This document shows, one piece after another, positions 44,811-46,532 of a stretch of 64,000 bases of DNA. Made by a program: the position numbers and the translations under genes. Numbering within the stretch: the stretch's first letter is position 1; every line of letters begins with the position of its first letter. The stretch covers positions 248,001 to 312,000 of the forward strand of contig JAUWGH010000001.1 in NCBI GenBank assembly GCA_030606485.1, given 5' to 3'. The stretch is from Promethearchaeota archaeon. Lineage in GTDB: Archaea; Asgardarchaeota; Lokiarchaeia; Sigyniarchaeales; SOKP01. The notes beneath the pieces were generated by a model. That model saw only the letters and a list, made by a program, of their open reading frames with translations. It did not search any database and was not told where the DNA came from.

Positions 44811-44918
44811 TAAAAATTTTAATACTAAATATTTTTTTTTAATTTTTTTTTAATAACTCAAATATTTAAGATTCTTTGAATTCCTTGATAATTACATTAA
44901 TTTAATAAAAAATAGAAT

Positions 44919-45074
44919 GCAAATCGCACTAAATTTCTGAGTTCGGAAAGGGATCAGGTTTTTCCAACATCCTATGACCGTTAACGAATTAACAGTTTAC
45001 AGTTTCCCAATAATCGCAATATCAGTACTATCTGTAACGATATGTTGTTTAACTTCCAGTCTAGTGCGAAGTGC
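44919..45074 (-). rRNA. circularly permuted 5S rRNA
   Basis: Minus-strand order: terminal stem CGCACTAGA (45068-45060); 3' half of 5S with AAGTTAAACAAC, helix V TTACAG (45037-45032), loop E AGTACTG, helix IV and GGGAA, helix V' CTGTAA (45002-44997), helix I' CTGTTAA (44995-44989); tetraloop TTCG (44988-44985); then the 5' half: helix I TTAACGG (44984-44978), TCATA, helix II GGATGTTG (44972-44965, pairing CAACATATC 45047-45039 with one bulge), helix III CTGA/TCAG and loop C TCCCTTTCCGAAC; finally TTTAGTGCG (44933-44925) closing the terminal stem. Native 5' and 3' ends are fused and the new ends lie in loop B. The native content is about 116 nt, normal for 5S. T-rich DNA (44906-44917) follows. 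Confidence 0.85.
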
Positions 45075-45242
45075 TATAAATTAATAATAAACCCTTTTAT
45101 TTTAATTTTACTTTTTACATACTATTTTCAATCTAATTGTAATATTCCAGCGTTTATTATGAAAATTTTCCTTAAAACTCTTATTTTAGTTGATTTACTT
45201 TTAGAAAATTTAAATAGTTTTGAAAATAATCTTAAAATATCG

Positions 45243-45782
45243 ATGCCTAGTAAAATAATTGTATTTTTCAAACGTGTTGGGCGCAACTGGTTTCTAATTT
45301 TTATAATAGCCGTGATTTTCGTTTTTTTTATCGAACAGATATTAGCAATTTGGTTAGTGGGTATTGCACTAGTTCTATATTTGTTATCGTTTCTTCCTAA
45401 TATCTTCTTCAAGAGATCCTTAAAAGGAAAAATGATGGAATATTATATGATTGAAGAAGATACAATTGCTCATAAAATGAAAAAACCATTGAGAAAAATT
45501 AGAGAAACGTTATTTAAATTATCTCAAAAACAACGCAAAAAAACCTATCTAATTGTATATTTAGATAATAGATATATTTATTTTCACGAAGAAACTGTTA
45601 ATAAGTTTAATGAACTTTATAAAAAAGGATTTGGTGAGAAGGAAATTCTCGAGGGTATGAAAAAATACGATTTACAAACCAAATCGGAGGTCAAATATAT
45701 CTTGAATACTCTTAAGAAACATAATCGGCTACCAGAAAGAGAGATCTCTGTAAAAGAGTATAGAGATAAGGATAGATATTAA
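45243..45782 (+). CDS. two-helix membrane protein with a long cytoplasmic tail
   Basis: I choose ATG 45243 (MPSKIIVFFKRVGRNWF), about 30 bp behind the TATA-like tttaaata; upstream in-frame starts would overlap the 5S gene. About 179 residues: two membrane helices (residues about 17-60), then a basic cytoplasmic part (KGKMMEYYMIEEDTIAHKMK) and a C-terminal helical domain with GFGEKEILEGMKKYDLQTK resembling a small winged or helical repeat unit. No family recognised. Confidence 0.65.
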   Translation: MPSKIIVFFKRVGRNWFLIFIIAVIFVFFIEQILAIWLVGIALVLYLLSFLPNIFFKRSLKGKMMEYYMIEEDTIAHKMKKPLRKIRETLFKLSQKQRKKTYLIVYLDNRYIYFHEETVNKFNELYKKGFGEKEILEGMKKYDLQTKSEVKYILNTLKKHNRLPEREISVKEYRDKDRY

Positions 45783-46022: not shown

Positions 46023-46532
46023 ATGAAAATCTTGACTGCCGGAGAGGGCGGAGTAGGAAAAACAACACTTTTACGCCGTTTTGTTGAAGGACAATTCTTC
46101 TCAGAGACTAAAATGACTATTGGGGTTGAATTTTTCCTGAAATCTATTGTTTTAGGAGACAATGAGATTACACTTCAACTCTGGGATTTTGGTGGGCAAG
46201 AACGTTTTAGGTTTTTACTTGGAAGTTATGTTTTAGGGGCTAAAGGAGCATTTCTAATGTTTGATCTTACAAGAATAGCAACATTAGAAAAACTTGAACA
46301 ATGGGTTCAAATTGTGCGCCAAAACGACCCTAATTTACCTGTTTTATTTCTTGGGACTAAAATTGATTTAATAGAAGATATAAATGTGAATGATGACTTT
46401 GCTTTATCATATCTCGAACCCTTAAATTTATTTGATTATCTCAAGATATCATCAAAAACTGGTGAAAATGTTGAGGAATCCTTTAAACGCTTAACTCAAG
46501 AAATATTAGAACGTCAAGGTATTCAAATATAA
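46023..46532 (+). CDS. Ras-superfamily small GTPase (Rab/Arf-like)
   Basis: A 169-residue GTPase: G1 GEGGVGKTT (residues 7-15), G2 Thr in KMTIGVEF, G3 LWDFGGQERF, G4 GTKIDL (Thr in place of the usual Asn) and G5 ISSKTGENVEE. The end lacks a prenylation or palmitoylation motif, so membrane association would need a partner. Expanded sets of such GTPases are a hallmark of Asgard archaea. The next gene starts directly at the stop codon, an operon with a PIN-domain protein. Confidence 0.93.
   Translation: MKILTAGEGGVGKTTLLRRFVEGQFFSETKMTIGVEFFLKSIVLGDNEITLQLWDFGGQERFRFLLGSYVLGAKGAFLMFDLTRIATLEKLEQWVQIVRQNDPNLPVLFLGTKIDLIEDINVNDDFALSYLEPLNLFDYLKISSKTGENVEESFKRLTQEILERQGIQI

Follow-up and report, generated by a model that had tools for sequence, protein, structure and literature searches.

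In the 64,000-nucleotide stretch of Promethearchaeota DNA analysed here (the window), the minus strand from 45074 to 44919 carries a 5S rRNA with exchanged halves, in which the 3' half comes first and is followed by a UUCG-capped helix I and then by the 5' half. The whole unit, a circularly permuted 5S rRNA gene running from terminal stem to terminal stem (44919..45074, minus strand), was delimited from its sequence, its predicted fold and covariance models. Reading along the minus strand, the 5' strand of a new terminal stem (45060..45074, with GCA at 45074-45072 and CGCACTAGA at 45068-45060; partner 44933-44919) precedes the native 3' half (44989..45057), which was recognised from an alignment of 26 permuted sequences (A1), from pair counts and from a rotated alignment with canonical 5S. 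This half begins with the 3' side of loop B, GGAAGTTAAAC, from 45057, and continues through the 3' strand of helix II (45047-45042) and helices IV (45037-45032/45002-44997) and V (45025-45020/45012-45007), which carry the loop-E-type motif AGTAC/GGGAA, to the 3' strand of helix I (44996-44989), each helix being placed by A1 and pair counts. A UUCG tetraloop (44985..44988), of the UNCG type common in permuted loci, links the native 5' and 3' ends, giving the capped helix I ACTGTTAA-TTCG-TTAACGGT at 44996-44977; helix I is therefore not open with paired ends, being closed by its cap at the DNA level. The native 5' half (44937..44984), supported by a match to the Rfam 5S model RF00001 and by A1 pair counts, comprises the 5' strand of helix I (44984-44977), loop A (CATA), the 5' strand of helix II (44970-44965), loop B, and helix III with loop C (44957-44954/44940-44937, the 3' strand being TCAG at 44940-44937). 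The unit ends with the 3' strand of the terminal stem (44919..44933, with TTTAGTGCG at 44933-44925 and TGC at 44921-44919).

The conserved motifs CATA, CCGAAC, GUUAAG and AGUAC/GGGAA are all present, as judged from A1 and the rotated alignment. The two strands of the terminal stem form a duplex of -19.3 kcal/mol, compared with -8.3 kcal/mol for shuffled sequence (z -4.4), and the minimum-free-energy fold (-36.8 kcal/mol, z -2.1) contains both the terminal stem and the capped helix I. A preliminary description of this DNA had claimed halves in reversed order on the minus strand, pairing of helices I-V, a UUCG cap joining the native ends and a new 9-bp stem at loop B extended by GCA/TGC. All of the elements that it named are present at the positions given above, and the five helices are both formed and supported by covariation in A1 and in a larger set of 71 sequences.

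A TATA-like element, TTAAAATA, at 45098..45105 (minus strand) precedes the predicted 5' end by 24-31 nt and is a candidate promoter, albeit a weak one in AT-rich sequence, and a run of six T residues just downstream of the gene (44907..44912, minus strand) is inferred from the sequence to be a candidate T-rich terminator. In many GC-richer lineages TTTATA-type boxes can be seen by eye 26-41 nt ahead of the stem, which is not proof of a promoter. Enrichment of TATA at a fixed distance from the core is weak outside the Loki family (14 of 33 loci, compared with 4-11 in other windows) and gives no signal inside it, as the start of the stem moves between loci. On the opposite strand, the listed start of an open reading frame at 45042-45782 (+) overlaps the 5S gene; its conserved start is probably the Met at ~45243 (MPSKIIVFFKRVGRNWF...), and its product is a small membrane protein that also adjoins permuted 5S genes in relatives. 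A Rab/Ras-type small GTPase, of a kind usual for Lokiarchaeia, is encoded nearby at 46023-46532 (+). Neighbouring tRNA genes occur at only a few permuted loci.

The source genome (3.75 Mb, 13 contigs, 100% complete) yields no Rfam match at the window locus at gathering thresholds. When RF00001 was searched against the whole genome at E<=10, a single match was returned, which is the window locus itself. With relaxed thresholds the model matches this locus only on the side of the 5' half (44985-44883), at 28.9 bits (E 0.0011), short of the gathering score of 38. With the same model, 64 of 228 Asgard genomes, and the control archaea as well, show canonical 5S above its cut-off, so the sensitivity of the search is adequate. 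The locus is thus the only 5S gene found in this organism, and the preliminary description had named the absence of an ordinary copy as support. It is situated on contig C2, far from the genes for the 5S-binding proteins uL18 and uL5 on C10; both proteins are encoded in genomes with permuted 5S.

When RF00001 was run on 97 relatives in a first survey, almost every member of the window's family gave only weak half-matches, which prove to be the same permutation when read by sequence. We then constructed a covariance model (R1) from the 26 permuted cores of A1. R1 matches the window at 44925-45057 with 129.1 bits (E 1.3e-33), a score that must be read with the knowledge that the training alignment already includes this locus. 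Run on the 228 Asgard genomes, R1 recovers full-length matches in permuted order at E<1e-10 from about 140, distributed over 22 families (f1, f3-f7, f9-f12, f17, f18 and f20-f29). The arrangement is found in other Lokiarchaeia, and the finding is wider than the original claim, extending to these 22 families and to at least three break sites. Four of the carriers are closed, single-contig assemblies (G037, G080, G101 and G144), and even in closed genomes the permuted form is the sole 5S. Canonical 5S scores above the cut-off in five other families (f2, f8, f13, f15 and f19), and clear carriers of both forms number only four (G023, G042, G106 and G134). The second copies in G023, G042 and G134 (L088, L089 and L201) look bacterial by sequence, and G106 has a canonical 5S of a different kind; co-occurrence is probably due to binning contamination in at least three of the four genomes, which is not proven. 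Other overlaps (G123, G125, G147 and G214) involve partial or tandem copies. Near mutual exclusion of the permuted and canonical forms among Asgard genomes is established. Neither form was found in ~30 of the 228 genomes, mostly fragmented MAGs. One assembly without either kind of 5S, G087 (f16), is listed as 92% complete, yet no ribosomal protein L2 was found in it, and it is a doubtful bin.

Outside the Asgards, where the covariance model was not run, other phyla were covered by one exact pattern only. A scan of 84,980 prokaryote species with this pattern returned 42 matches, all of which are from Asgards according to their record titles, 41 being Lokiarchaeota/Lokiarchaeia and one Odinarchaeia. 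The permuted genes themselves are variable in form. Many contain extra hairpins of 25-40 nt (expansion segments), located for example in loop C (L067, L056, L068 and L063), in helix I (L042 and L216) or in the helix V arm (L046 and L078). Tandem copies also occur: one locus (L205, G147:C510) has two permuted 5S genes with a 157-nt period, and the closed genome G066, which belongs to f2, the sister family of the window's family, has three near-identical canonical 5S genes ~374 nt apart (L072, 2700-4000).

Covariation provides very strong evidence for selection on the permuted structure, including the capped helix I. In A1, 87.4% of pair cells are standard pairs, compared with 64.8% after shuffling, the covariation score is 0.611 (0.191 when shuffled, and <=0.20 in slid controls), and double changes occupy 180 cells rather than 62. 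The capped helix I is paired in 98.4% of cases and shows double changes at five of its seven pairs. The set of 71 sequences gives a covariation score of 0.808 versus 0.198, but as it was fitted to the structure it is biased towards it, and it includes a few canonical matches. The sequence of the terminal stem is unrelated between families and yet remains complementary, significantly so (p<0.05) at 47 of 58 loci, 37 of which reach the p floor of 0.005; pairing of each strand with its own partner gives a mean of -23.7 kcal/mol, compared with -13.5 kcal/mol with partners from other families. G080, for example, has GGUAGUAUCG/CGAUACUACC, and G097 has a stem of 15 bp; many loci have perfect, uninterrupted stems (10 bp in G080, 15 bp in G081). 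At the remaining 11 loci (p>=0.05) the stems are weak or unmeasured, although at least two of these (G144 and G180) had a mis-set 3' boundary and possess 9-10 bp stems by eye. Close relatives retain both stems, that of the capped helix I as well as the terminal one, with compensatory changes, which the preliminary description had named as support. Once rotated, the permuted sequences can be aligned to canonical 5S column for column. A chance origin is ruled out by the retention of the arrangement across about 140 genomes, accompanied by compensatory changes. The arrangement, its conservation and its covariation are established.

We consider it likely that these loci encode a functional 5S rRNA that is permuted at the DNA level, has its ends at the terminal stem, is ribosomal, and replaces canonical 5S in the 22 families. 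It is possible instead that the gene is permuted and the mature RNA is not, the transcript being circularised at the terminal stem by a splicing endonuclease and ligase and then cut at the helix I cap. Archaea, Asgards among them, do circularise 16S and 23S rRNA (PMC12918454), and a loose search for bulge-helix-bulge motifs at the new ends found them at 20 of 58 loci, with 10 expected. However, helix I retains its cap as part of a hairpin that covaries and has a loop of the UNCG type in roughly two thirds of permuted loci, and removal by cutting would make this hairpin pointless; many terminal stems, moreover, are perfect helices without a splicing motif (G080, G081). We therefore regard this route as unlikely. 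About equally improbable is a transcript whose ends are joined across the terminal stem and which remains a circle once inside the ribosome. Circular 23S rRNA occurs in some archaeal ribosomes, circles of Asgard 16S and 23S have been reported (PMC12918454), and with the ends paired the same fold would be expected of a circle and of a linear molecule; against this, the bulge-helix-bulge motif is not consistent across loci, and the archaea studied do not process their 5S by way of circles (PMC12918454, introduction). Neither processing back to the native order nor a circular product can be excluded.

There is very little to recommend a degraded duplicate, or a regulatory RNA mimicking 5S (such as a ribosomal protein leader), with the true canonical 5S having been missed. 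The window locus does fail to reach the Rfam gathering score, but RF00001 is sensitive enough to score canonical 5S at 45-85 bits in ~60 other Asgard genomes, the compensatory evolution is strong, the locus is distant from uL18/uL5, and it is the sole 5S even where genomes are closed. That tandem canonical copies or misassembly merely mimic a permutation is scarcely credible: Asgards do have tandem 5S arrays (G066 with three canonical copies, G147 with two permuted), but each reference locus has only one 3' half and one 5' half and is set in flanks of its own, a 4-nt hairpin loop rather than a spacer forms the native junction, closed genomes lack outer halves, and the arrangement occurs independently in about 140 assemblies.

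In the absence of RNA data, three features of the functional permuted 5S that we favour are inferred: that it is expressed, that its ends are linear and lie at the terminal stem, and that it enters the ribosome. An autonomous transcript would be made from the gene's own promoter, with its start immediately ahead of the terminal stem and its end at the T-run. With its native ends fused through a UUCG-type tetraloop capping helix I, and the chain interrupted within the 3' strand of loop B, where two added strands would form the terminal stem that holds the new ends, this RNA is predicted to fold into an ordinary three-armed 5S. The folded molecule may then bind uL18 and uL5 and join the large subunit, from which the capped helix I and terminal stem would project as outward appendages. 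Escherichia coli grows with an engineered 5S that is embedded in 23S and has its native ends joined at helix I (PMC7283268), indicating that such a topology is compatible with function.

The standard break falls within the 3' strand of loop B, with the 3' strand of helix III (CGGAA) on one side and GUUAAG on the other, and GGAA/AGAA sequence is retained on both sides of it. In some Lokiarchaeia (G017, G027, G031, G033, G037 and G045) the break is in loop C, the 3' strand of helix III and loop C having been relocated to the 5' end, and in G062 it falls within the 5' side of loop B; the break has moved at least twice since the permutation arose. The permutation probably arose by tandem duplication followed by loss of the outer halves, a mechanism that is inferred and is consistent with the repeats shared between the ends and with the tandem 5S copies in G066 (canonical) and G147 (permuted). 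A canonical-order 5S in G106 (L192, G106:C117:8277-8414, minus strand) has a small hairpin insert in loop B, CAGTCT-ATCG-AGACTG, exactly where permuted 5S opens and with the same flanks, CACGGAA...CGTGAAAGTTAA. It is plausible that L192 represents a structural precursor of the permuted form; the contig is of unclear origin.

Phylogenetic analysis was based on RpoB together with L2/L3/L4/L23, RpoB being added because only these four genes of the ribosomal protein operon were syntenic. In this tree the canonical family f2, the Lokiarchaeial sister of the window's family, adjoins the permuted family f1 with full support, and deep nodes are poorly supported. A 5S tree built from rotated sequences likewise groups the f2 5S (G066/G073) with that of f1; several canonical entries in this tree were in the wrong strand, and only this grouping was used. 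The adjacency of f2 and f1 in both trees implies that the change occurred within a vertically inherited gene. With weak nodes collapsed, parsimony requires five changes from a permuted root and seven from a canonical root, which is not decisive, and the trees are compatible both with a single origin followed by reversions and with several independent permutations. It is conceivable, though rather doubtful, that the Asgard common ancestor was already permuted, the canonical 5S of f2 and of the large, possibly Heimdall-like family f8 being later reversions. If so, the order of a universal rRNA was flipped and then flipped back by duplication and deletion, and, should eukaryotes branch inside the Asgards, their canonical 5S could also be a reversion.

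Few RNAs are as conserved as the universal 5S rRNA, and the Asgard archaea are the phylum closest to eukaryotes. We know of no natural permutation of 5S outside organelles. A search of the literature on permuted 5S in archaea, Asgards and Lokiarchaea found no report; preprints and subscription papers were not covered, and a recent report is possible. The permuted 5S of Asgards has apparently gone unnoticed so far, and the claim in the preliminary description that none was known from a prokaryotic genome stands to this extent, being impossible to prove. Its statement that organelles have permuted 5S is upheld by a 2023 NAR paper, in which natural circular permutations are few and 5S is listed among them, with organelle work cited (PMC10085705). 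In a study of closed Asgard genomes, existing HMMs could not predict 5S (PMC8813620); the permutation status of those genomes is undetermined. Permutation offers an explanation for the unannotated 5S of many Asgard genomes, and annotation tools need a permuted model, for which the 26-sequence model works. As the standard form in most Asgard families, permuted 5S represents a rewired part of the universal ribosome, and indicates that the ends of 5S can shift in evolution without loss of the gene. Its interleaving with canonical 5S, together with at least three break sites, allows the re-ending of an essential RNA to be studied, and any Asgard ribosome structure is predicted to show helix I closed by a cap and an additional stem at loop B.

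In comparison with canonical 5S (RF00001), the Asgard form retains the five helices, loop A CATA, the loop-E-type motif, loop C CCGAAC and GUUAAG, and is found in genomes with uL5 and uL18 genes, but its halves are swapped, its native ends are fused by a tetraloop and its new ends lie near loop B. Permuted mitochondrial 5S (mtPerm-5S, Rfam RF02547) was reportedly described in brown algae by Valach et al. (NAR, 2014). That RNA is likewise a natural circular permutation of 5S, but is organellar, whereas the Asgard form belongs to cellular genomes, is phylum-wide and has several break sites. The RF02547 model had no match at E<=10 in six Asgard genomes. Other RNA permutations in Archaea include permuted tRNA genes and circular SRP RNA. 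Pyrococcus 23S rRNA is permuted post-transcriptionally (PMC7758197). These share archaeal RNA permutation with the Asgard 5S but require circularisation of the transcript, whereas in Asgards the permutation is already in the gene and no splicing motif recurs consistently. 5S expansion segments (PMC7812874) differ in leaving the core order unchanged. The engineered cp5S of Huang et al. (2020), made in E. coli as 23S-cp5S hybrids, also has its native ends joined at helix I, with new ends near loop C or D, and cells live without free normal 5S (PMC7283268). That construct is artificial and resides inside 23S, whereas the Asgard form is natural, autonomous and mostly opened at loop B, and provides a natural parallel to ribosomes engineered with cp5S.
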